32,393 bases of DNA from Chromatiales bacterium (lineage in GTDB: Bacteria > Pseudomonadota > Gammaproteobacteria > Granulosicoccales > Granulosicoccaceae). The position numbers were made by a program, and so were the translations under genes. The number at the start of each line of letters is the position of its first letter. Position 1 is the stretch's first letter. The notes under the pieces were generated by a model, which was given only the letters and a program-made list of their open reading frames with translations, was not told the DNA's origin and searched no databases. Below are positions 9,170 to 28,877 of this stretch, one piece after another. The DNA lies in NCBI GenBank assembly GCA_020631335.1, contig JAHDHK010000008.1, forward strand, positions 1 to 32,393, written 5' to 3'.

Positions 9170-9496
9170 ATGCCACATCCGTTTTCGCTGAAACTGGTTA
9201 TCCACGGGAAATTTCCCGAGAAAACCATGATTGACTGGATTCTTCACCGTGCCGGGTTGCTTGATCTCAGCGGCTGGGTCCGGTTTCACAACGAAACCTG
9301 TATCGAAATGGTCGCCATCGGAGATCGCATTCTGGTGGAAGCACTTGAAGTCGCCTGCAGCCTCGGCCCGGCCTCCGCACAGGTGGACTCGATTATCTGT
9401 CTGGAACCGTCCCGGCACGAGGTCCCCGGTCGACACGCAAAACAATTCGTAAGATACTCTTGCCCGGGTCCTCGCAAGCTGGCGAACCATCAATGA
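9170..9496 (+). CDS. Acylphosphatase-like protein lacking the catalytic residues
   Basis: A 108-residue protein whose pattern matches the acylphosphatase ferredoxin-like fold. The first strand SLKLVIHGK stands for the family's V.GRVQGVGFR strand-loop. LDLSGWVRFHNETCIEMVAIG then matches the LGLTGWVRN..DGSVEV..G core, and LGPASAQVDSI matches the GP..A.V..V segment. The P-loop-like catalytic loop is not conserved: the position of the catalytic Arg is Ile, and the catalytic Asn position in the WVRN motif is Phe. Acylphosphatase activity is therefore unlikely, and a structural or binding role is my inference. The TGA overlaps the ATG of the Rieske gene by 4 bp (ATGA), which supports real translation. 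The frame opens only 35 bp upstream, so ATG 9170 is the sole ATG option; its ribosome-binding site is poor. Confidence 0.65.
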   Translation: MPHPFSLKLVIHGKFPEKTMIDWILHRAGLLDLSGWVRFHNETCIEMVAIGDRILVEALEVACSLGPASAQVDSIICLEPSRHEVPGRHAKQFVRYSCPGPRKLANHQ

Positions 9497-10170
9497 CTTC
9501 ACATCCCGTTGGCCTGTCCGGCAATCTTGCTCCGCGACAAGTCATGCGGGCGACGATCAATCAGTTCGATATCGCTGTATGGCGCAGCGAGAGCGGCATC
9601 ATCAGCGCCTGGGACAACCGATGCCCACACCGTGGCATGCGCCTGTCACACGGATTTGTACGCGGTGAATCGCTCGCATGTGCCTACCACGGCTGGCACT
9701 ACAACTGTGAAGGATTCTGCCATTACATTCCGGCGCATCCTGAACTCACGCCACCGAAAACAGTACGCCCCGTTATCTACAGCGTGATCGAACGCCACGG
9801 ACTGATCTGGATCAACCCGACCGCCGAAGCCCGGGCACACGAACTCCCCGATAATCTCATACCACTGCGAACCCTGACATTCGAATGCGATGAAAACACT
9901 GCGTTGCATGCCATGTCCAGCACCGCGCAACACGCAGGCGAGTCTTTCGAGCCGGGCGACACTTTGTCTGAGTCACCTCGAATCATCACTGTAAACACCC
10001 CTGCTATCGCGAACGGTATCATCATCGCTTTTCACCAGTGTGCACCACATAATGTGATCGCGCATGTACTGGTGCAGAACACCCTGTCAAGTGCCGCACA
10101 AATCGACGTATCACGCTGGCTCGAGTCAGTGCGGCGTCATGCTGAAGCCAACGTGAGCGAATACCTGTGA
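9493..10170 (+). CDS. Stand-alone Rieske [2Fe-2S] protein with remnant oxygenase C-terminus
   Basis: 225 residues from ATG 9493, which overlaps the preceding stop by 4 bp; an ATG at 9460 in the same frame is less likely. The Rieske cluster motifs are complete: C44-P-H46 and C63-A-Y-H66, followed by GWHYNCEGFCHYIPAHPE and a strand RHGLIWINP as in Rieske oxygenase alpha subunits. After residue 115 about 110 residues remain. They resemble part of the oxygenase catalytic fold (PRIITVNTP, then IIIAFHQCAPHN) but lack an HxxxxH mononuclear-iron site. The inferred role is electron transfer from an unknown reductase to the catalytic subunit encoded next, whose own cluster site is deleted. NdmD of caffeine degraders supplies a Rieske domain to NdmC in a comparable way, but there it is fused to a reductase, which is absent here. 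Confidence 0.9.
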   Translation: MTSHPVGLSGNLAPRQVMRATINQFDIAVWRSESGIISAWDNRCPHRGMRLSHGFVRGESLACAYHGWHYNCEGFCHYIPAHPELTPPKTVRPVIYSVIERHGLIWINPTAEARAHELPDNLIPLRTLTFECDENTALHAMSSTAQHAGESFEPGDTLSESPRIITVNTPAIANGIIIAFHQCAPHNVIAHVLVQNTLSSAAQIDVSRWLESVRRHAEANVSEYL

Positions 10171-11012
10171 GCGCCCGCGAACACGCATTAAAGTACTGGT
10201 ATCCGGTGGCAATGGTCAATGAACTTGCCTCTGGTCAAACCCGTGAAACAGTACTTTTAGAAACACCATTGCAACTCGAAGCTACAGCAGACGGCAACTT
10301 AAACGCCAGTGCTCACAAGCAGTCACTGTCAGTACAAAACGCGTTTGACCACTGGTGGGTTACGCTGTCCGATAACCCGTATCCTCTGTTTAAAGTTCCC
10401 GAAGCCGCAGAAACGGATCGACGCTTTGTACCGTGTGGTGTGGTTCGCGTGTTGTGTTCACCGTTGCGAGCGGTTGAAAATTTTCTCGACATTGCTCACT
10501 TCCCGTTTGTACACACCGATGTGCTGGGTGCAGAGCCGCATACTGAAGTATATAAATACGACGTTAAAATAGATGACACTCATGACGAGGTCATTGCCAG
10601 CAATATCCGCTTTTATCAGCCTCAGGCAGCAAAGTCTGCCGAAGGTGGAATAGAAACGCAGTATATCTATCGAGTGCCCGCACCAATGGTGGCCGTGCTA
10701 TACAAAACCTGTCCGCAACGCGAAGACGCAATGGATGTCATTGCACTGTTTGTACAGCCCGTCGATGAAGAAACCTGTGATGTATGGCCCTGGATGGCTT
10801 TATACGATGACACCAGCTCCATGGCAGATCTTATCCAGTTTCAGCAGTTCATCTTCCTGCAGGATCGCACCATTCTCGAAAACCAGTTACCCAGAAAACT
10901 ACCGATTGATCCCGGGCTGGAAATACCCACCAGAGCAGACCTGACTTCGGTCTCCTACCGACGCTGGTTAAAAAAGCGCGGTGCATACTACGGCGCACTC
11001 GAGGGCAGATGA
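10167..11012 (+). CDS. Rieske-type oxygenase catalytic subunit with deleted Rieske cluster site (NdmC-like)
   Basis: 281 residues from GTG 10167, which overlaps the previous stop (GTGA). The N-terminus reads YWYPVAMVNELASGQ, the usual start of vanillate-demethylase-type Rieske oxygenases. The roughly 45 residues that should carry CxH and CxxH are missing, and the strand FDHWWVTLSDNPYPLF follows directly. The catalytic domain is intact: ENFLDIAHFPFVH gives the bridging Asp108 and iron ligands His111 and His116, and LQDRTILENQ supplies carboxylate Asp233. It must therefore receive electrons from a Rieske centre on another chain, most simply the product of the gene just upstream. The closest functional precedent I know is NdmC, the N7-demethylase of 7-methylxanthine. 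The start overlap and neighbours suggest a purine-like substrate. Confidence 0.88.
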   Translation: MSAREHALKYWYPVAMVNELASGQTRETVLLETPLQLEATADGNLNASAHKQSLSVQNAFDHWWVTLSDNPYPLFKVPEAAETDRRFVPCGVVRVLCSPLRAVENFLDIAHFPFVHTDVLGAEPHTEVYKYDVKIDDTHDEVIASNIRFYQPQAAKSAEGGIETQYIYRVPAPMVAVLYKTCPQREDAMDVIALFVQPVDEETCDVWPWMALYDDTSSMADLIQFQQFIFLQDRTILENQLPRKLPIDPGLEIPTRADLTSVSYRRWLKKRGAYYGALEGR

Positions 11013-11701
11013 TGTCATTTACTCTCTACAACTACGTGCTGTCAGGCAACTGTTATAAAGTCCGACTGATGGCCAGCCTGCTCAAGGTTAGCTACGAAGC
11101 TGTGTCGGTTGACTTCCATCCGGGTAAAGCACACAAGCAGGAACCCCTGTTAAAGCTTAACCCGGCGGGAACATTGCCGGTGCTGGTCACCGCAGACCAT
11201 GAAATCCTCACTGAGACTCAGGCCATGCTGGTATGGCTGGCACAACAGTATGACGTCGATAACACCTGGTGGCCGGCACACAACCAGCCACAGATAACCG
11301 GCATTATGCAATGGCTTGCTTTTGCGTCACGCCTGAGCGCCACGGTCGGTGAGCTGCGATTGCATACCATGTTAAACAAACCGCTCGATGCCGCCCCCAC
11401 CAGAGCCGGCGCGATCAAAGCGCTCAGGGAGCTTGAAAGCCACCTGACCGAACAACGTATCCACGGACACCCGTGGCTCGCAGGCAGTTCACCCACTATC
11501 GCCGACATAGCCTGCTTCCCTTATACCGCATTAAGTCCCGATGCCAACATCGAACACGACAACTACCCGGCCATTCGCAGCTGGCTGCATGCGGTGCGCT
11601 GCCTCGACGGCTTTATCACGATGCCGGGTATTTTTGAACTTCATACCTTGCGCAACCCTGCCGGAGCGGACGCTTCGCCGCTCTCAGATACGGTAGCCTG
11701 A
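11009..11701 (+). CDS. Glutathione S-transferase-like protein (possible NdmE-like oxygenase partner)
   Basis: 230 residues, starting at ATG 11009 in a 4-bp overlap with the oxygenase gene; a second ATG follows at once. The N-terminal thioredoxin-like domain (about 3-80) has LYNYVLSGNCYKVRL with the possible active-site Ser/Cys, the cis-proline motif NPAGTLPVL and the glutathione-binding-like TETQAML. The helical C-terminal domain (about 90-210) contains GSSPTIADIACFPY, with the N-capping Asp typical of GSTs. Family knowledge: NdmE, a GST homologue, is needed structurally for the NdmC/NdmD complex. The gene order Rieske protein, cluster-less oxygenase, GST here suggests the same role, but ordinary glutathione transfer cannot be excluded. 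Confidence 0.88.
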   Translation: MMSFTLYNYVLSGNCYKVRLMASLLKVSYEAVSVDFHPGKAHKQEPLLKLNPAGTLPVLVTADHEILTETQAMLVWLAQQYDVDNTWWPAHNQPQITGIMQWLAFASRLSATVGELRLHTMLNKPLDAAPTRAGAIKALRELESHLTEQRIHGHPWLAGSSPTIADIACFPYTALSPDANIEHDNYPAIRSWLHAVRCLDGFITMPGIFELHTLRNPAGADASPLSDTVA

Positions 11702-11704
11702 CCG

Positions 11705-13090
11705 ATGGCGAACATATTACTGAAGTCCTGCGATGCGGTTGTCACCTGCGACGACAACAACACCGTACTGCGCAACACCGATCTGCTGATCAAAGGCAAC
11801 ACGATAGCGCGCATAGAAAAGCACATCGATGCGTCAGCACTTGAATCAGATACCACCATTATTGATGCCACCGGGCACTTTGTTTATCCCGGCTTAATCA
11901 ATACCCATCATCATTTTTTTCAGTGCTTTGTACGCAACCATGCGCACCTGGACTGGACAAAACTCTCTGTACTCGAGTGGCTTGATCGTATTTACCCGTT
12001 GTTTTCACAGCTCGATGAAGATTGCTTCTATCACTCTTCGGTGGCAGCGATGGGAGAGCTGATTAAACATGGCTGCACCACGGCATTCGATCATCAGTAC
12101 AATTTTCCGCGCCATGCAGGAAAACAACTGATCGACCGGCAATTTGAGGCTGCCGATTTACTGGGTATGCGGTTTCACGCCGGCCGGGGTGGAAACACCC
12201 TGCCAAAATCGCAGGGCAGCACTATCCCTGATGAGATGCGCGAAAGCACTGACGAGTTCATCGCAGACTGTGCACGGTTGATTGATAACTATCACGACGC
12301 CTCACCCGGCAGCATGCGTCAGGTAGTAATCGCCCCCTGCCAGCCCGTCAATTCCTATGTCGATACGTTTATCGAATCCATTGCCCTTGCACGCGATAAA
12401 AAAGTGCTGCTCCACAGCCACGTCGGAGAGGGTGAAAGTGAAGTTATCCGTCAGCGAACCGGCATGCGCACGGTCGACTGGTGTGAAGACATCGGCTTTG
12501 TCGGCAGCGATGTATGGCTTGCCCACTGTTGGGAATTGAACACCGATGAAATAGCCACACTGGCTCGCACAAACACGGGCGTTTCACACTGCCCCGAGCC
12601 GGTTTATCTGGTGGGTGCCGAGGTCACCCCGATCGCACAAATGCACGCGGCCGGCGTACGCATCGGGCTCGGGGTGGATGGCGCTGCCTCCAATGACAAC
12701 TCCAATCTGATGCACTGCATTCACAGTGCGTATATGCTGCAGGCACTGGTAGCATCGCAGCATGAGTTTAGCGTGCCGGAACCAAACGCTTTCCTGCACT
12801 ATGCCACACGCGGCGGTGCAGATCTTTTGCAGCGGCCGGATCTCGGCAGACTGACAGAAGGACTGGCGGCCGATCTGTTTATGCTCGATACACGCAAGGT
12901 TGATTTCATTGGTGCGACACACGCCCCCGAAAGTCTGATTGCCAAAGTCGGTATCTCAGCCCCGGTTGATCTCACCATGATCAACGGCCGTGTCGTATGG
13001 CGCAACGGAGAGTTCCCGGGCCTGGATGAACAGCAATTGTTTGCACAGGCACAAAAGCACGTCGAACGCGTGGTGTACCCGAATTTGTAG
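11705..13090 (+). CDS. Amidohydrolase of the 8-oxoguanine deaminase / COG0402 type
   Basis: 461 residues, beginning 3 bp after the GST stop. The metal site of cytosine/guanine-deaminase-like amidohydrolases is complete: H68 and H70 in NTHHHFFQ, H237 in LLHSHVGE with catalytic Glu242, H274 in WLAHCWEL, and D325 in GLGVDGAASND. The stretches GCTTAFDHQYNFP, FHAGRGG and the ending DLTMINGRVVWRNGEF follow the 8-oxoguanine deaminase subgroup, which hydrolytically deaminates 8-oxoguanine to urate. The substrate loop TGVSHCPEPVYLVGAEVTPI departs from the CPSSNM-type loop I expect in that group, so the true substrate may be a related aminopurine. Its place between oxygenase and importer genes supports purine catabolism. 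Cytoplasmic. Confidence 0.88.
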   Translation: MANILLKSCDAVVTCDDNNTVLRNTDLLIKGNTIARIEKHIDASALESDTTIIDATGHFVYPGLINTHHHFFQCFVRNHAHLDWTKLSVLEWLDRIYPLFSQLDEDCFYHSSVAAMGELIKHGCTTAFDHQYNFPRHAGKQLIDRQFEAADLLGMRFHAGRGGNTLPKSQGSTIPDEMRESTDEFIADCARLIDNYHDASPGSMRQVVIAPCQPVNSYVDTFIESIALARDKKVLLHSHVGEGESEVIRQRTGMRTVDWCEDIGFVGSDVWLAHCWELNTDEIATLARTNTGVSHCPEPVYLVGAEVTPIAQMHAAGVRIGLGVDGAASNDNSNLMHCIHSAYMLQALVASQHEFSVPEPNAFLHYATRGGADLLQRPDLGRLTEGLAADLFMLDTRKVDFIGATHAPESLIAKVGISAPVDLTMINGRVVWRNGEFPGLDEQQLFAQAQKHVERVVYPNL

Positions 13091-13133: not shown

Positions 13134-14207
13134 ATGAACAGAATGTCAAAAGCACTTGCTGCTATTGTCACCGCCGGATGCATGTTCGGCACCGCACAGG
13201 CAGACACACTGGAGATCGGTGTGCTGTTGCCCTCACCGATTGCCGACGTCGGCTGGTCACATGCCCTCAATGAAGGTATTGCCGCCGTGGTGGAGAAATA
13301 TGGCGACAAGGTCAATGTCAGCACCATAGAAAACATACAGGAGGGGCCCGACGCAGATCGAATCATGAACAAGATGATCGGCGACGGTCATGAGTTTCTG
13401 TTACTCGGCTCTTTCGGCTATATGAATGCCGGACTGAAGCTCGCTCAACGCAACCCTGAACGCACATTTCTGCATGCATCCGGCTACAAGACAGCAAAGA
13501 ACTTCTCACCATTTACTGCCAAGTACTATGAAGGTGCCTATTTAATGGGTATGGCAGCAGCAGAGCTAACTAAAACCAAAAAGCTCGGTGTGGTGTCTGC
13601 CTTTGCGATCCCGGAACTAATCTCAACCATCAACGGCTTTACCCTGGGCGCACGCAGTATAGACCCCGACATAACCGTAGACGTTATCTGGATCAATTCA
13701 TGGTTTGATCCGGCTAAAGCACAGGATTCAGCCAAGGCACTACTGGCCGGTGGTGCAGACATTCTGTTTTCTAATGCTCAGGACACGCCATCAGTTGTTA
13801 CCGTCGGTGAAGAAGCCGGTGCTTATGTATTCAACCTCAACAGCTCCATGAAAGAATACGCACCTACTAAATACCTCGGTGTGGTCAAAACAGACTGGGC
13901 ACCGTTTTTTGTGGCTTCTGTCGATGCGCACCTGGCCGGTACTTTTGAAGGTGCCAACGAATGGCTCGGCATGGACGACGATGTTGTGGTCGTGGAAGAC
14001 TGGAGCAGCGACATCAGCAGCGACATGATGACTCGAATACAGGCCATGCATGAAGAGATCGCCTCCGGTGCACGCCACGTATACGACGGACCGCTGGTTA
14101 ACCAGGCAGGCGAAGAAGTCATTCCCACCGGCCAAAGACTGGAAGACGGTGCAATTCTGGGTATGGACTGGCATGTGGAAGGCGTTAATTCTCCTTTGCC
14201 TAAATAA
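13134..14207 (+). CDS. BMP-family ABC transporter substrate-binding protein (purine/nucleoside type)
   Basis: A 357-residue periplasmic binding protein with a strong ribosome-binding site (AGGAGA, about 10 nt before ATG). The signal peptide ends AQA-DTLE near residue 24; a Cys at about 16 is poorly placed for a lipobox, so I favour a soluble periplasmic form. The mature start EIGVLLPSPIADVGWSHALNEG and the segment YYEGAYLMGMAAAELTK are characteristic of BMP/PnrA-like proteins. Members bind purine nucleosides, and related ones bind purines or riboflavin. With the ATPase and two permeases that follow it makes a complete importer, and its operon with a purine-type deaminase points to a purine ligand (inference). 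A stable hairpin (14230-14260) follows the stop and may raise its mRNA level. Confidence 0.92.
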   Translation: MNRMSKALAAIVTAGCMFGTAQADTLEIGVLLPSPIADVGWSHALNEGIAAVVEKYGDKVNVSTIENIQEGPDADRIMNKMIGDGHEFLLLGSFGYMNAGLKLAQRNPERTFLHASGYKTAKNFSPFTAKYYEGAYLMGMAAAELTKTKKLGVVSAFAIPELISTINGFTLGARSIDPDITVDVIWINSWFDPAKAQDSAKALLAGGADILFSNAQDTPSVVTVGEEAGAYVFNLNSSMKEYAPTKYLGVVKTDWAPFFVASVDAHLAGTFEGANEWLGMDDDVVVVEDWSSDISSDMMTRIQAMHEEIASGARHVYDGPLVNQAGEEVIPTGQRLEDGAILGMDWHVEGVNSPLPK

Positions 14208-14280: not shown

Positions 14281-15858
14281 ATGACTGCAAGTCCGGCGTT
14301 GTTGTCACTTCGCAATATCACCAAGCGCTATCCTGCTGTTGTTGCTAATGACAACATCTGTCTGGAAGTGCACGCCAACTCTATTCACGCGGTGCTCGGT
14401 GAAAACGGTGCGGGCAAATCCACGTTGATGAAGCTGGTCTACGGGCTTATCGAAAGCGATAGTGGGGAATTATACTGGCAGGGTCAGCGTGTTGAACTGC
14501 GCAATCCGGCCGCTGCCCGCAAACTGGGTATCGGCATGGTTTTTCAGCACTTCTCACTGTTTGAGACCTTAAGCGTTGTCGAAAACATATCATTGACAAT
14601 CGCCGGCAGTCGGCAGGTGCTATCGCAAAAGATCATCGATATCGGCGAACGCTTTCAACTGAAGGTTAACCCCGATGCATCAGTACATTCTCTGTCGGTT
14701 GGAGAGCGTCAGCGGGTTGAGATTATCCGGTGTCTGCTACAGGACCTGAAACTGTTAATACTCGACGAACCGACATCTGTCTTACCGCCACAGCATATCA
14801 GCGCATTGTTTGAAGCATTGCGGAAACTGCGCGATAGTGGCGTGGCGATTCTGTTTATCTCGCATAAGCTCGAGGAAATTCGCGATTTATGTGATACCGC
14901 CACCGTACTGCGTGGCGGTAAAGTTGCCGGATCGATCAATCCGGCCCGTGCCAGCACACAGGAACTCGCCACCCTGATGATCGGCCATGAAGTCGCCGGT
15001 GTTAACACCGGATCAAACGCTCAAACATCATCGAATTCGCAGAGCAGTGACCACGCGTTACTGCAGCTGAATGCGGTCACTGTCTCCAGTGACGATCCTT
15101 TCGGCACCAGCCTTCACGATATCAATCTACAGGTAAACAGCGGCGAGATTGTCGGCATCGCCGGTGTGTCCGGCAACGGACAAAAAGAGCTGTCGCGGCT
15201 GATATCGGGGGAGCAGATGGAAAAACACCTGCCTGCCGAATCGATCAAAATGATCGGTCAACCGGTTACCCGTCTCGGCGCTGCAGAACGCCGTGCGCTG
15301 GGGTTTGCATTTGTCCCCGAAGAAAGGCTCGGTCGCGGCGCAGTACCGGTCATGTCACTGGCAAAAAACACCTTACTGACCACGTTTTATCAGGGCATGC
15401 TGTCACAGGGATTCATCAGAGGCGGCAAACTAAAACGCTACACCGATGAGTGCATAGAAAAATTCGACGTTCGATGTGGAGGTGCGCAGGCAATGGCAGG
15501 CTCACTGTCGGGTGGCAATCTACAGAAGTTTATTATCGGCCGCGAGTTGATGCTGTCGCCTCGATTGCTGTTTGTCGCACAACCCACCTGGGGTGTCGAC
15601 ATCGGGGCTGCAACCGCAATCAGGCAACGCCTGATAGATCTTCGTAATACCGGCATCGGCATTTTAATTGTGTCTGAGGAACTCGAAGAACTCTTCGAAG
15701 TTACCGACAGAATACATGTTATCAACAGTGGCAGATTATCGCCCTCACTGACCACCGCCGAAGTCACCCCGAACGATATCGGTGAATACATGATCAGCCA
15801 CAACCAGCGTGGCAGCCACGGCGATAACAGTAACACGGGTGACGGCCATGCAGTTTAA
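14281..15858 (+). CDS. ABC transporter ATPase with two nucleotide-binding domains (nucleoside/sugar type)
   Basis: 525 residues with the duplicated layout of RbsA/YufO-type ATPases. Domain 1 (about 5-240) has Walker A GENGAGKST, signature LSVGERQRVE and Walker B LLILDEPTS. Domain 2 (about 260-505) has a degenerate Walker A (GVSGNGQKE), signature LSGGNLQKFIIGREL and a Walker B-like LLFVAQPTWGVDIG. The second site is therefore probably not hydrolytic, as is usual in this family. The linker after residue 240 is Ser/Asn-rich. It powers the importer formed with the permeases encoded next; the stop overlaps the following start by 11 bp. The ribosome-binding site before ATG 14281 is weak (CCTCCTT precedes it, not a Shine-Dalgarno). 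Confidence 0.95.
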   Translation: MTASPALLSLRNITKRYPAVVANDNICLEVHANSIHAVLGENGAGKSTLMKLVYGLIESDSGELYWQGQRVELRNPAAARKLGIGMVFQHFSLFETLSVVENISLTIAGSRQVLSQKIIDIGERFQLKVNPDASVHSLSVGERQRVEIIRCLLQDLKLLILDEPTSVLPPQHISALFEALRKLRDSGVAILFISHKLEEIRDLCDTATVLRGGKVAGSINPARASTQELATLMIGHEVAGVNTGSNAQTSSNSQSSDHALLQLNAVTVSSDDPFGTSLHDINLQVNSGEIVGIAGVSGNGQKELSRLISGEQMEKHLPAESIKMIGQPVTRLGAAERRALGFAFVPEERLGRGAVPVMSLAKNTLLTTFYQGMLSQGFIRGGKLKRYTDECIEKFDVRCGGAQAMAGSLSGGNLQKFIIGRELMLSPRLLFVAQPTWGVDIGAATAIRQRLIDLRNTGIGILIVSEELEELFEVTDRIHVINSGRLSPSLTTAEVTPNDIGEYMISHNQRGSHGDNSNTGDGHAV

Positions 15859-16942
15859 GCTTGATCGACGTGAGCGTGCATCGAGACGCATGCTGCTGCT
15901 CACACCACTTCTGGCTGTGTTGCTGTCTGTCATCACCAGTTCACTGTTACTGCTTATATTGAACAAGCCAGTGGGCTCAACGCTGCACTCTTTTTTTATT
16001 GCGCCCTTTGAAAATTTTTATTCGATCACCGAAGTGTTCCTGAAGTTCGGGCCACTGTTGCTCATAGCTCAGGCACTGGCGGTTGGTTTTCGCGCAAAGG
16101 TATGGAACATCGGTGCAGAGGGGCAGATGATTATCGGTGCGATTGCCGCCAGCTCAGTACCGGTATACTTCGTCGACAGTACGTCGGGCTGGTTACTACC
16201 GGCAATGATCGCCCTGGGCGCAGCCGGTGGTATGTCATGGGCGGCGATTGCCGCATGGCTTAAAACACGCTTTAACGCCAATGAAATACTGGTGACGCTC
16301 ATGCTCACCTCTATCGCACTGCAATTATTGTATTACCTGTTGCTCGGCCCGTGGAAAGATCCGATGGGATTCAATTTTCCACAAACCGTGATGTTTCAAA
16401 ACGAGGCTCTGTTCAGTCCGCTGTTTTCAGGGGTCAGGCTGAACACCTCCATTATTATTCCAATTATATTCACAGTCGCAGTCTGGCTATTCATGGAGCG
16501 TCATTTCGGCGGCTTCAAGCTGGTGGTAGGCGGCCTGGCACCACAGGCAGCCACCTATGCGGGCTTCAGCGCCAAAAAAGCCGTCTGGGTGAGTTTATTG
16601 CTGGCCGGGTTTGCGGCAGGTCTGGCTGGTATGAGTGAGGTTGCCGGCCCTATCGGTCAGTTACAGCGATCCGTCACTTCAGGTTACGGCTATTCAGCGA
16701 TCATCGTCGCATACCTGGGTGCACTGAACCCGGTGGGCATTGTTTTCGCCGCATTTTTCGTTGCTGTGCTGCAAATAGGCGGAGACGTCGCACTGGTGTC
16801 GGCTAATCTGCCCATCAGTGCTGTCCATGTATTCCAGGGGCTGCTGCTGATTTTTTATCTTGCCACGTACACCCTGGTGAATTATCAAATCAGACCGCTT
16901 CGTCACGCCTCCTCGTCTACCACTGAAGGTCAGCCCACGTGA
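15848..16942 (+). CDS. ABC transporter permease (nucleoside/purine type), first subunit
   Basis: I place the start at ATG 15848 (364 residues, MQFKLDRRERASRRM), inside the end of the ATPase gene and preceded by GGTGA; an in-frame ATG at 15809 would add 13 residues that overlap further. The protein shows 8-10 hydrophobic helices and the family signature KVWNIGAEGQMIIGAIAA in the first cytoplasmic region (about residues 85-105), as in YufP-type permeases of BMP-linked importers. A later stretch, GYGYSAIIVAYLGALNP, is also conserved in this group. It forms the transmembrane pore together with the next gene product. The TGA overlaps the GTG start of that gene (GTGA). Confidence 0.93.
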   Translation: MQFKLDRRERASRRMLLLTPLLAVLLSVITSSLLLLILNKPVGSTLHSFFIAPFENFYSITEVFLKFGPLLLIAQALAVGFRAKVWNIGAEGQMIIGAIAASSVPVYFVDSTSGWLLPAMIALGAAGGMSWAAIAAWLKTRFNANEILVTLMLTSIALQLLYYLLLGPWKDPMGFNFPQTVMFQNEALFSPLFSGVRLNTSIIIPIIFTVAVWLFMERHFGGFKLVVGGLAPQAATYAGFSAKKAVWVSLLLAGFAAGLAGMSEVAGPIGQLQRSVTSGYGYSAIIVAYLGALNPVGIVFAAFFVAVLQIGGDVALVSANLPISAVHVFQGLLLIFYLATYTLVNYQIRPLRHASSSTTEGQPT

Positions 16943-17865
16943 GCACTCTGGAATTCTTCCTGGCGGGAACCTTCAGCGCCGCCACTATCTTTTTACTGGC
17001 CGCGCTGGGTGAACTGGTGGCTGAAAAATCCGGCGTGCTTAATCTCAGTGTCGAAGGCATGATGGCCGTATCCGCCGCGGTCGGCTTTGTCGTCACCTAC
17101 GAGACCGGCAGCCACATAGCGGGCTTTGCCGGTGCCGGATTGGCCGGCGTGCTGCTCTCTTTGATTTTCGCGATCACAGCCATTACGTTTCTGGCCAATC
17201 AGGTGGCAACCGGCCTGGCCGTGGGCATACTGGGGCTGGGTTTGTCGGCGCTGATAGGCCGCGACTATGAAAGCCTGACCATTGCCTCCTCCGCCGGCAT
17301 CAATATTCCGGTCTTAAGCGAAATTCCATTGATCGGCGCGGTACTTTTCCAGCAGCATCCAGTGGTCTATTTGACCTTCCTGCTGGCTTTAATCATCGGT
17401 TTCACACTCAAACATACCCGGCTGGGGCTCGCTATTCGCTCCACCGGTGAAAACCCGCACGCTGCACAGGCACTGGGATTTCCGGTATTTCTTATCCGCT
17501 ACTGTTGTGTCGCCTTCGGCGGATTGCTGGCCGGCTTCGCCGGAGCGTATGCGTCAACGATCTACACACCACTTTGGGCCGACGGCATGATCGCCGGTCG
17601 CGGCTGGATTGCAGTGGCACTGGTGGTGTTCGGCACCTGGAAAACAGGGCGCATCGCATTTGGCGCACTGCTTTTCGGTATGGTCTCACTGGGAGAGCTT
17701 ATCGCTCAGTCCATGGGGGCGGGAATCCCGTCGCAGCTGTTATCCAGCCTGCCTTATATCGTCACTATTATTGTGCTGGCGGTTATTTCCACCGATCGGG
17801 CACGTATGCGGCTGCACTCACCGTTTTCACTGGGTGAGACCTTTGACGGAACCGAGGGACGCTAA
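16939..17865 (+). CDS. ABC transporter permease (nucleoside/purine type), second subunit
   Basis: 308 residues from GTG 16939, in a 4-bp overlap with the first permease. The signature ALGELVAEKSGVLNLSVEGM near residues 22-41 identifies the YufQ-like permease of BMP-dependent importers; it mirrors the VWNIGAEGQ motif of the partner. Hydrophobic segments cover most of the length. The loop HTRLGLAIRSTGENPHAAQALGF (about 155-177, including the EAA-type contact with the ATPase) and GRGWIAVALVVFGTW are typical. It completes the transporter, and no further import gene follows before the 86-bp gap to the small NTF2-like gene. Confidence 0.93.
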   Translation: MSTLEFFLAGTFSAATIFLLAALGELVAEKSGVLNLSVEGMMAVSAAVGFVVTYETGSHIAGFAGAGLAGVLLSLIFAITAITFLANQVATGLAVGILGLGLSALIGRDYESLTIASSAGINIPVLSEIPLIGAVLFQQHPVVYLTFLLALIIGFTLKHTRLGLAIRSTGENPHAAQALGFPVFLIRYCCVAFGGLLAGFAGAYASTIYTPLWADGMIAGRGWIAVALVVFGTWKTGRIAFGALLFGMVSLGELIAQSMGAGIPSQLLSSLPYIVTIIVLAVISTDRARMRLHSPFSLGETFDGTEGR

Positions 17866-19191: not shown

Positions 19192-20718
19192 CTAACGCCA
19201 GGCCTTCTGCGCAATTATTTGAATATACCGGGCTGTCTCCCTGTATGGCGAATTCTCCCCGAGATGTTTTTCCATCGTCAGCAGTTTGTCTATATTTACC
19301 GCTCCCTCATAGGTCGGTGACAGGTTTGGATGGTTATACATACAAAACACACCGTAATTTGCGACGACATTAAAACCGTGGCAGGAAAGCCACTGACAGA
19401 GAAACCCGCTGGTAAAAAAAGAGATATCGGTATCGAACACACCGGACTTGCCCTGCGGCTGCTCGAGCAATTCGTGCAGCTGTTCAATCTCATAATCATC
19501 GAGGCTCGCATCGAAAGGCACAGAATGCTTATTGCGTGTCATCAGTGAGAACAGCCCGCCTGATGCCAAAGGCGCAATCATTGAGGTCAGCAGATCTTCC
19601 CAGTCATCGGAATATTGAATAACGTTGTGACAAAGCAGCAGATCGAAAGTATCGGCAGAGAATCGCTTGCGGATTTCCCTGATATCAAAAGAGTGTGTCT
19701 TCAACTGATGGGCAACCCCGGACTGATCAGCACCGGCCTGAAGATCATGCAACATGGATAGCGATGTATCCACCAGATCCACCTGGTACCCCGACTGCGC
19801 CAGAGCCAGGCTGTCTATACCGTTACCACCCCCGGCATCAAGCGTTCTGAGCACTTTATCTTCGGGCAGATGATTAGACAGATTCTGAGCTGACAACGCA
19901 TATCGAATTTGCCCTTTTAATGAACTCTGCTCCTGCTTCCATTGCGGTAACGCAGATTCAAAAGCAATTTTCCTGGTTGTCGCCTTTAACGCCTGTTTCA
20001 AAATGATTTTACCGGTATGCAATGCCTTACCGATCAATACGCCACTGATACCACTGTGGTTATAGCACTCGACAACATCGTCCATATCACGTACTTCGCC
20101 ACCGACAATGACATTGAGACCGGTCAGCTGAGAAAGCTCTTTGGACACCTCTAAATCTGCACCACTCATTGAACCATCGGCATTAATACGATTATGTATT
20201 GCTGTGGTTATACCAAGCCGGTACATCTGTACACCCAGTGTTACTGCTTTCTGACCACCAGCCATACTCCAGCCGTGAGTCATGACTTCCCCCTGCGGAT
20301 CGGTGTTAATAGAAAGCGCAAAACGCTCACTGCCATATTTTGCAATGGCCTGAGCGACCATCATCGGGTTTTCGACAGCAGCGGTGTTAATCAGCACTCT
20401 GGTCACACCAATTCGTATGGCCCAGTCAATATCTTCCATGGTGCGAATACCGCCACCGTATTGAATCATCACCGGCAGCTTGCATATCTGTTCTACCAGC
20501 GGCCAGTGATGACTGGCGTCTTCGTCATGGGCGGCATCGACGTTAATCACATGAATCCATCCTGCACCCTGCTCAATCCAGTATTGCGCGCAAGCCACAG
20601 GCTCGACAACATCGGGTAAGGCTGAATCAGACTCTGAGTACTGAGTAAAATCGAATGACTTCCCTCCCTTCAGATGCATCGCCGGTATGACTAGAAAATC
20701 GTTATCGTGTGTTGGCAT
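19192..20718 (-). CDS. Fusion of a catalytically altered HisA-like barrel and a CmoM-like SAM methyltransferase
   Basis: 508 residues. Residues about 8-240 are HisA-like (ProFAR isomerase fold): VIPAMHLKGGK at the start, QYGGGIRTMEDI for phosphate binding, NTAAVENP, ADGSMSGADLE and GVLIGKALHTGKI. The two catalytic aspartates of HisA are replaced: the IPAID position is His15 and the SLD position is Asn138. The Thr of the HTEI motif is Asn176. ProFAR isomerisation is therefore unlikely. Residues about 265-508 form a class I methyltransferase with motif I LDAGGGNGID (293-302), VDLVDTS and LLCHNVIQYSDD, resembling CmoM, which methylates a carboxylate on the wobble-uridine modification of tRNA. 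The substrate of either half is unknown. The start at ATG 20718 lacks a good ribosome-binding site. Confidence 0.85.
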   Translation of the reverse strand: MPTHDNDFLVIPAMHLKGGKSFDFTQYSESDSALPDVVEPVACAQYWIEQGAGWIHVINVDAAHDEDASHHWPLVEQICKLPVMIQYGGGIRTMEDIDWAIRIGVTRVLINTAAVENPMMVAQAIAKYGSERFALSINTDPQGEVMTHGWSMAGGQKAVTLGVQMYRLGITTAIHNRINADGSMSGADLEVSKELSQLTGLNVIVGGEVRDMDDVVECYNHSGISGVLIGKALHTGKIILKQALKATTRKIAFESALPQWKQEQSSLKGQIRYALSAQNLSNHLPEDKVLRTLDAGGGNGIDSLALAQSGYQVDLVDTSLSMLHDLQAGADQSGVAHQLKTHSFDIREIRKRFSADTFDLLLCHNVIQYSDDWEDLLTSMIAPLASGGLFSLMTRNKHSVPFDASLDDYEIEQLHELLEQPQGKSGVFDTDISFFTSGFLCQWLSCHGFNVVANYGVFCMYNHPNLSPTYEGAVNIDKLLTMEKHLGENSPYRETARYIQIIAQKAWR

Positions 20719-27923: not shown

Positions 27924-28877
27924 ATGAAAAAATTTTCCGTGTTAACCCTTATTTCAGCTTTGGCTTGTGCCACTGAAACAGGTTTCTCTGCGACGGATAT
28001 GCCGGCGCTCGACGGCACCTGGATCAGCACAAGTTGTGAGCTACGCCCGCAGGCAGGTCCCGACGGTGTTAACCCCTGGCACCTCACAAGAAGCGTCATT
28101 TTCAACGGCGATCGAATAGATGCGCACTTCACCACTTTCGCAGATGCCAACTGCAGTACCCCTCTGGTAGAACTGAAGTTTGGCGGAGAGGTTCGTGTAC
28201 TGGGCGCATCCGATGTGGTCAGCGGTGCTAAAAACGTTGATCTGATTGTAAACGACTACCTCACTATCACACCTCGTAGGGATGGTTTCAGTGACTTCCT
28301 GAACTCGGCACAACCCGGTGCCTGTGGCAACGAGCGCTGGCAGACAGGTGTAGAACAGAACATTTATAAAACCGGCTGTTCTGTGATGGGCGTTGCCGCA
28401 GACACACCGTCCAACGAATTCGAGGTGCTCTATGTGGCATCGGGCTTATTGTACTTTGGCGCCCGACCGGTCAATGGTAAGCCGCTTGATACGCCGCAAA
28501 GCCGCCCGACTGCGTTGCAGGTACCGCTGCAGCTGGCTGGAGGTGGTATGACACGGCAGGTAGGTGCAGCAGATGTACGAGTTCCCACGCACGTCGAAAT
28601 AGTGAATTTCACTCAGGCGGACGGTGCTGATCCAGCAGAGGTGCGCGCTTTTTTTGAAGACATAACCATCCGTATGAACCAGAACGACACTCTGCTATAT
28701 CGCACCGTTGCGCAAGGTGAGGACGGTAATTGGCTGTGCATTAATTACTGGCTATCGCATGAAGCCATGAAGGAGCTAAACGCACAGGCGCAAAGCTGGA
28801 CTGAACTCACCTCAGAGATCAACAAAGTGGTCAAGCCAGGGTCCTTCAGACTAAGCAGCTATGCACTTAATCGATAA
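27924..28877 (+). CDS. Exported APCDD1-domain protein fused to a dimeric alpha/beta-barrel domain
   Basis: 317 residues with a strong ribosome-binding site (AGGAGA, 6 nt before ATG) and a signal peptide ending about FSA-TD (24). Residues about 27-205 match the APCDD1 domain known mainly from the animal Wnt inhibitor APCDD1: LDGTWISTSCELRP, WHLTRSVIF, FADANCSTPLVELKFGG, then CGNERWQTGVEQNIYKTGC, LYFGARPVNG and DTPQSRPTALQVPL. Several Cys (38, 77, 134, 152) could form disulfides. Residues about 220-317 (HVEIVNFTQ ... GNWLCINYWLSHEAMKEL) look like a ferredoxin-like barrel of the antibiotic-monooxygenase type. Predicted to be periplasmic or secreted. First gene of a three-gene operon divergent from the LysR gene. 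Confidence 0.78.
   Translation: MKKFSVLTLISALACATETGFSATDMPALDGTWISTSCELRPQAGPDGVNPWHLTRSVIFNGDRIDAHFTTFADANCSTPLVELKFGGEVRVLGASDVVSGAKNVDLIVNDYLTITPRRDGFSDFLNSAQPGACGNERWQTGVEQNIYKTGCSVMGVAADTPSNEFEVLYVASGLLYFGARPVNGKPLDTPQSRPTALQVPLQLAGGGMTRQVGAADVRVPTHVEIVNFTQADGADPAEVRAFFEDITIRMNQNDTLLYRTVAQGEDGNWLCINYWLSHEAMKELNAQAQSWTELTSEINKVVKPGSFRLSSYALNR

Follow-up and report, generated by a model that had tools for sequence, protein, structure and literature searches.

A Rieske non-haem iron oxygenase apparently divided between two adjacent genes of a Granulosicoccaceae bacterium

The stretch of DNA analysed here, referred to below as the window, comprises positions 1-32,393 of the forward strand of contig JAHDHK010000008.1, from a Chromatiales bacterium (Granulosicoccaceae; assembly GCA_020631335.1). 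We are concerned with two adjacent genes in this window, whose products, P0001 and P0002, each carry one of the two metal sites of a Rieske oxygenase:

9493..10170, + strand: P0001, a stand-alone Rieske [2Fe-2S] chain of 225 amino acids (aa); ATG start at 9493, TGA ending at 10170; Pfam Rieske.
10167..11012, + strand: P0002, a Rieske-less, NdmC-like oxygenase of 281 aa; GTG start at 10167, TGA ending at 11012; Pfam VanA_C.

The two frames share four base pairs, GTGA, at 10167-10170, exactly the overlap noticed in an initial reading of the letters alone (the sequence-only reading). That reading had also assigned to P0001 a complete CxH/CxxH Rieske site with no iron ligands in its C-terminal half, and to P0002 an iron site without a cluster region, and both assignments hold residue for residue. 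P0001 consists of a Rieske domain (approximately residues 1-110), with C44, H46, C63 and H66 as ligands, followed by a vestigial catalytic domain (approximately residues 110-225, on which more below); Rieske is the only Pfam family that it matches above cut-off (residues 5-85, 3e-19). P0002 carries the mononuclear iron site H111/H116/D233 with a bridging D108, which we take to stand in place of the bridging carboxylate (D-x2-H-x4-H), and it matches catalytic domains alone above the Pfam cut-offs (VanA_C, residues 97-270, 9e-21, and KshA_C), with no Rieske domain. A D/E-x2-H-x4-H motif was found in none of 81 stand-alone Rieske proteins. An HxxxxH at P0001 residues 181-186 was considered as a metal site and rejected, being present in only one of the 81.

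A profile scan of bacterial genomes with the P0002 family yielded at least 526 confirmed relatives, of which we examined the best 80, that is, the nearest relatives of P0002; two of these loci are possibly records of genomes close to that of the window (the L031 oxygenase is 81% identical). If the sequence-only reading is correct, both the adjacency of the pair and the deletion in its second protein would be expected to recur, and this is indeed the case: an adjacent stand-alone Rieske gene with an intact motif (encoding 196-257 aa) is present at 80/80 loci, a Rieske motif in the oxygenase chain at 0/80, and D108, H111, H116 and D233 are invariant in all 81 rows when the window is included. 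With start codons and frames chosen by script, 71 of the 80 pairs overlap by 4 bp (69 through ATGA, 2 through GTGA). An assembly or frameshift error as the cause of the split is rejected, given the identical arrangement at all 80 of these other loci. Homologues of P0002 with an intact Rieske site, which the sequence-only reading had named as evidence against itself, do exist, but as outgroups (L029, 31-34% identical) and at none of the 80 nearest loci. In a class-wide search, the Rieske family was matched over its full length in 4 of 369 genomes (G000, G016, G086 and G328), in each of which oxygenase and glutathione S-transferase (GST) genes adjoin the Rieske gene. P0002 also has matches in 268 public plasmid records, with an identity of 60-80% in 91 of these.

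Each chain appears to retain traces of what the other carries. Measured against L029, an intact homologue from Leptolyngbya, P0002 lacks 50 residues corresponding to the cluster-bearing lobe, with the flanking strands on both sides kept; the sequence-only reading had put the loss at about 45, and the new figure refers to this one homologue. Fifteen residues of the deleted stretch are still present in L026, a relative of the fused type introduced below, and the beta-scaffold of the Rieske domain is retained in P0002 without its cluster lobe. A profile comparison of this scaffold across the gap, with alignments that took in NdmD rows for the one family and the intact L029 for the other, gives 97.6% (E 3.3e-12); the stand-alone and Rieske-less families alone give 72.8% (E 3.2e-5), with just 42 columns of Rieske scaffold aligned. 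Against the PDB, P0001 residues 13-107 align with SxtT 22-118 (7e-22), the best matches being the N-terminal domains of SxtT and SxtDIOX, and P0002 residues 38-277 align with SxtDIOX 91-333, its relatives over the catalytic domain being SxtDIOX, SxtT, NdmA and NdmB. Each of these relatives of solved structure (SxtT and SxtDIOX for both halves, NdmA and NdmB for the catalytic half) holds the two sites in a single chain.

NdmCDE of Pseudomonas putida CBB5 is the characterised representative of the nearest split type. Published accounts describe NdmCDE as a 3:3:3 complex in which NdmC is without a Rieske cluster (PMC4408171, PMC13237722, PMC10380055, PMC7948474) and as a 7-methylxanthine N7-demethylase; according to a review, a Rieske domain detached from its oxygenase and joined to a reductase had not been reported before NdmCDE (PMC4408171). 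The locus studied here shares with NdmCDE an oxygenase chain with iron ligands and no cluster, a cluster on a second chain, and a GST-like third gene. It differs in that no NADH reductase with plant-type ferredoxin is joined to the Rieske chain or was found nearby, and in that the surrounding cassette adds an acylphosphatase-like gene, an 8-oxoguanine-deaminase-like gene and a BMP-type ATP-binding cassette (ABC) importer. The claim of the sequence-only reading that a stand-alone Rieske donor without a fused reductase differs from NdmD is thus borne out by P0001, which has a Rieske domain only. P0002 likewise departs from a standard Rieske oxygenase alpha subunit, in which both sites lie in one chain, and from the three-component oxygenases, in which the alpha subunit bears a Rieske site in addition to that of the ferredoxin.

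As stand-ins for the CBB5 proteins we used P. putida plasmids pKF715A and p420352-strA together with Sinorhizobium genes, and the NdmC-like and NdmD-like proteins among them are sister groups of P0002 and P0001, respectively. On two P. putida and two Sinorhizobium plasmids an NdmC-like gene adjoins one for a Rieske protein of 585-588 residues; the two such proteins that were scanned, from L024 and L026, have Fer2 and NAD-binding domains (NAD_binding_1 at 30.1 bits in L024, clearly over cut-off, and at 22.6 bits in L026). A GST is annotated next in three of these four plasmids, and a GST-like frame was found in L026. Both types occur within the window's own family (stand-alone, L002-L007; fused, L008-L016). 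At four loci (L027:8944-12567, L152, L155 and L156) two tandem NdmC-like oxygenases precede one NdmD-like Rieske protein, whose reductase part was seen in L027; one detached Rieske chain may there serve two oxygenases.

Comparison with the fused type also bears on the C-terminal half of P0001, which is supported, by way of the NdmD linker (the stretch between Rieske domain and reductase), as a decayed catalytic domain. The profile of the P0001 C-terminus matches the linker at 94% (E 1.5e-7), and the linker in turn matches the NdmC catalytic profile at 81% (E 1.3e-5) in the region of the QPVD strand and the D233 helix. The score of the latter match, 38.6, compares with at most 19.0 in 100 column shuffles, 8.5 for the reversed profile, and at most 14.7 for the linker against four unrelated families (GST, BMP, acylphosphatase and amidohydrolase profiles). 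Under a permissive, forced setting, the N-terminal 277 positions of the fused proteins align end to end with intact oxygenases, with a gap at the metal-binding stretch; the Rieske part presumably accounts for the E value of 7.7e-32. Conservation of at least 95% at R126, S207, R214 and E218 of the P0001 remnant in the 81 rows suggests that the remnant still serves some function.

In phylogenetic trees, both halves fall next to one and the same intact lineage. The trees were built from 26 stand-alone Rieske chains and 26 partner oxygenases (picked for spread), 15 NdmD rows (L152, L155 and L156 being assigned to this type by their frame lengths, 596-636 aa, and their position), 19 fused-type NdmC rows and 42 intact rows (44 frames minus two copies of the same gene); both were midpoint-rooted, and the Rieske tree used 115 columns, with ferredoxins left out. 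In the Rieske tree the stand-alone rows lie to one side of a branch (98/91), as do the NdmD rows (99/96); the two groups join at 98/90, followed outward by the intact L029 (95/85) and then by the intact group f108 (93/76, not a starred branch). In the catalytic tree the Rieske-less rows, 26 of the stand-alone and 19 of the fused type, make up a single clade (95/99), which falls in a looser group (89/80, left open) that also takes in L029, the intact proteins of f108 and, on a long branch, L018; the subgroups here are less firm (88/58 and 83/85), several long branches meet, and L018 is unplaced. The nearest intact relatives of both halves (L029; L146-L150) resemble the window in their importer neighbourhood, and differ in that a single chain (frames of 324-387 aa) holds both metal sites and in showing no GST match at the five loci examined.

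Since P0002 keeps a Rieske scaffold and P0001 a catalytic remnant, each chain seems to derive from a full-length copy; simple gene fission is rejected, as it would not leave both remnants. The adjacency of both halves to one intact lineage, together with these remnants, supports duplication with reciprocal loss before the stand-alone and fused types parted. As NdmD-type proteins are the sister group of the stand-alone Rieske chains, with the remnant common to both, the split would predate the two types. The origin put forward by the sequence-only reading thus gains support from scaffold, remnant and trees, but not as something special to this pair, being shared with, and older than, the division between NdmC and NdmD.

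We put at roughly three in four the probability that P0001 and P0002 constitute one Rieske non-haem iron oxygenase in two chains that arose by duplication and reciprocal loss. In the mechanism that we propose, P0002 would be the catalytic body, probably a trimer, holding the non-haem iron, and P0001 would place its Rieske cluster where P0002 has lost its lobe, so that electrons would pass from the cluster through Asp108 of P0002 to the iron, as they do between neighbouring subunits of ordinary oxygenases. Such a complex would correspond to the obligate hetero-oligomer inferred in the sequence-only reading, and the invariance of D108 in 81 of 81 rows fits the proposed path. In published accounts of NdmA/B and CntA, cluster and iron are about 12 Å apart across neighbouring subunits, as against about 44 Å inside a single subunit, and in CntA a glutamate bridges cluster and iron (PMC4408171, PMC13237722, PMC10380055, PMC7948474); with P0001 docked at the site of the lost lobe, the geometry of about 12 Å would hold between chains. 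The GST-like product of the third gene, P0003, would probably hold the chains together, as postulated for NdmE, and P0001 would be reduced by a reductase encoded elsewhere. A search of 12 genomes of the stand-alone type found a strong NdmD-type match (1e-47 or better) elsewhere in 8, a partial match at a contig end in the window's own genome (3.5e-24), and a weaker or partial one in G680. As to history, a full-length oxygenase beside a BMP-ABC importer would have been duplicated; one copy would have lost its cluster lobe, while the other lost its iron ligands and kept a shrunken catalytic domain. One branch would later have gained a fused reductase (NdmD-like), the other remaining stand-alone (P0001).

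Several observations weigh against this proposal or parts of it. Compared directly with the NdmC catalytic profile, the P0001 C-terminus gives just 2.8% (E 0.016) and a score of 18.9, a level reached by 1 of 100 shuffles and approached by the unrelated BMP profile (16.9), and against the intact oxygenases it gives 0.1% (E 0.48). The pooled P0001 and NdmD remnants against the NdmC profile (30%, E 6e-4) and the NdmD linker against the intact oxygenases (5.7%, E 0.0067) are also weak, so the remnant link depends on the NdmD linker as an intermediate. In R. tumorigenes (L028:2218-11254) the Rieske and GST genes form one gene group and the importer, oxygenase and guaD genes a divergent one; with the two chains in separate operons, translational coupling of the pair is not obligatory. 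In the genomes G009 (1.1e-5) and G030 (1.1e-9) the only NdmD-type reductase matches are weak. Finally, the deaminase and BMP genes that belong to the cassette in the window are absent from some of the 80 loci, and not all of these are contig-end cases.

The remaining members of that cassette in the window are the following:

9170..9496, + strand: P0006, acylphosphatase-like protein of 108 aa; Pfam acylphosphatase 0.0016, 19.2 bits, under the cut-off of 22.5; NCBIfam 3e-8, under cut-off.
11009..11701, + strand: P0003, GST-like, NdmE-like protein of 230 aa; Pfam GST.
11705..13090, + strand: P0004, amidohydrolase of 461 aa, closest to 8-oxoguanine deaminase; NCBIfam PRK08203 5e-120; PDB 7ww2 1.4e-87.
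13134..14207, + strand: P0005, BMP/PnrA-type periplasmic binding protein of an ABC importer; Pfam Bmp 6.6e-41; PDB 3s99, 6pi5.
14281..15858, + strand: ABC transporter ATPase of the same importer as P0005; open reading frame (ORF) list, order in annotated records, tblastn.
15809..16942, + strand: ABC transporter permease 1; ORF list, order in annotated records, tblastn.
16939..17865, + strand: ABC transporter permease 2; ORF list, order in annotated records, tblastn.

Across the 80 loci a GST gene lies directly 3' of the oxygenase in all 80 and an acylphosphatase-like gene ahead of the Rieske gene in 78, with an amidohydrolase in 70 and a BMP protein in 71. An NdmD-type reductase match was found at 1 of the 80, in a 122-residue frame on the opposite strand of L044. 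Gene order is identical in the one record opened for each of Shinella, Rhizobium johnstonii and Agrobacterium; in the listed plasmid records the oxygenase is annotated merely as a ring-hydroxylating dioxygenase subunit or not at all. Hosts among the relatives listed include many rhizobia, Rhodobacterales and Granulosicoccaceae. In a count of families of at least 90 aa recurring in at least 6 loci, frames opposite to genes included, those on the coding strand belong to the cassette and its ABC transporter, with one addition, a family present in 6 loci that by eye is a LysR-like regulator. P0003 is 44% identical over 206 columns to the GST beside the NdmC/NdmD-like pair of pKF715A. In the P0006 family (82 rows) G13, W23, L31, G51, G66 and P67 are invariant, and what we take to be the catalytic Arg and Asn of acylphosphatases are by eye not conserved; P0006 is probably an inactive, co-inherited partner.

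At all five intact loci examined (L029, L194-L197) the single-chain oxygenase stands beside an ABC ATPase, permeases and a BMP protein, and tblastn found no match there to the GST, the acylphosphatase-like protein (which diverges fast and could escape detection) or the NdmD reductase; a reductase match of 33 bits lies in one long frame of L196. At the fused loci L198 and L199 there is a GST and no acylphosphatase match, and the stand-alone locus L200 has the full cassette. The GST, without a match at the five intact loci and present at the fused and stand-alone ones, thus arises together with the split, which agrees with the part in the structure that NdmE is proposed to play; the absence of a neighbouring reductase looks ancestral. 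At one intact locus (L194:8967-10022) a gene resembling an adenosine/adenine deaminase (by eye) lies 3' of the single-chain relative, in the same importer cluster.

Two further genes in the window lie outside the cassette. At 19192-20718, on the - strand, a 508-residue fusion joins a HisA-like barrel (TIGR00007, 157 bits) to a CmoM-like methyltransferase (89 bits), both below cut-off; what we presume to be the usual HisA catalytic aspartates seem by eye to be replaced. At 27924-28877, on the + strand, a bacterial protein matches Pfam APCDDC (2.2e-12), a domain named for an animal protein.

To judge from the content of the cassette, its substrate is probably a purine of guanine type or one methylated at N7. 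In R. tumorigenes the deaminase next to the oxygenase is annotated guaD, and the nearest PDB entries to P0005 are 3s99 and the atrazine binding protein 6pi5. A separate guanine deaminase is over cut-off in 11 of the 12 stand-alone-type genomes (that of the window's genome is partial and below cut-off) and XdhB in 10 of the 12, which suits a modified guanine as the substrate. The oxygenase would probably oxidise an imported purine, guanine-type or methylated; one example would be 7-methylxanthine, which the cassette deaminase would produce from 7-methylguanine and the oxygenase would demethylate at N7; judged by gene content, deamination of 7-methylguanine followed by N7-demethylation to xanthine fits. 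The main alternative route runs from 8-oxoguanine to urate, and there is an appreciable chance, short of even, that the oxygenase instead hydroxylates a purine ring carbon or acts on urate so formed, with no demethylation. The cassette deaminase is closest to 8-oxoguanine deaminase, whose product would be urate; the PRK08203 score of P0004, 401 bits, lies under that family's cut-off of 532. HpxD of the Hpx purine pathway, a purine-related oxygenase and distant match of P0002 (28%), is annotated as a molybdenum-independent xanthine hydroxylase subunit; it is, however, a single chain whose adjacent gene is annotated as a PDR/VanB reductase, and it falls outside the clade in both trees (L030). 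The characterised enzyme of the nearest split type, moreover, is an N7-demethylase (PMC4408171). A broader picture, which we offer tentatively and with some doubt, is of a widespread, undescribed multi-protein purine-salvage oxygenase of Rhizobiales, Rhodobacterales and Granulosicoccaceae, in which a probably inactive acylphosphatase-fold protein, a detachable Rieske chain carrying a vestigial catalytic domain, a Rieske-less oxygenase, a GST scaffold replacing the lost covalent tether, and a deaminase would serve the import and use of a modified guanine, be it 7-methylguanine or some other, the electrons coming from a donor unlike NdmD.

Small stand-alone Rieske proteins serve as ferredoxins in three-component systems, and P0001 could be an ordinary ferredoxin of this kind, shuttling electrons from a reductase to P0002 without replacing its lobe, in a pair that did not arise from one oxygenase. 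P0001 does match Rieske ferredoxins in the PDB (6e-5 to 9e-3), but the N-terminal domains of oxygenases match it far better (SxtT, 7e-22), it has about 110 further residues with the catalytic-domain remnant, and in the Rieske tree it adjoins the very intact oxygenases that neighbour P0002 in the catalytic tree; we therefore think this explanation unlikely. Improbable, too, is that the stand-alone form is a broken and decaying NdmCDE whose Rieske part was cut from a formerly fused reductase, since although the two types are sister groups in a midpoint-rooted tree that does not by itself give the direction, no NdmD-type reductase match lies near the intact relatives (five loci, bar the 33-bit match in L196) and the form is present, with strongly conserved motifs, at 80/80 loci.

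Returning to one oxygenase in two chains, the NdmCDE-type split is known already; what looks new is the stand-alone Rieske chain, to which no reductase is fused or adjacent, and its place among acylphosphatase-like, GST, deaminase and BMP-ABC genes. By title and start of abstract, no paper on this version was among those listed from open-licence PubMed Central, a search that did not cover the original NdmCDE papers. According to the review, 18 further organisms, most of them Sinorhizobium and Mesorhizobium, have homologous ndmCDE clusters (PMC4408171). Because the Mesorhizobium loci among those examined here are of the stand-alone type, earlier authors may already have seen such pairs without saying so in the texts consulted.

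The pair shows how duplication and reciprocal loss can dismantle a two-domain redox enzyme while both of the lost halves stay traceable as remnants. It also suggests a source for the odd Rieske domain in NdmD. A stand-alone Rieske chain would allow the inter-subunit electron transfer of Rieske oxygenases to be probed in trans, by mixing of chains, and the cassette that carries it points to an uncharacterised step in purine catabolism.

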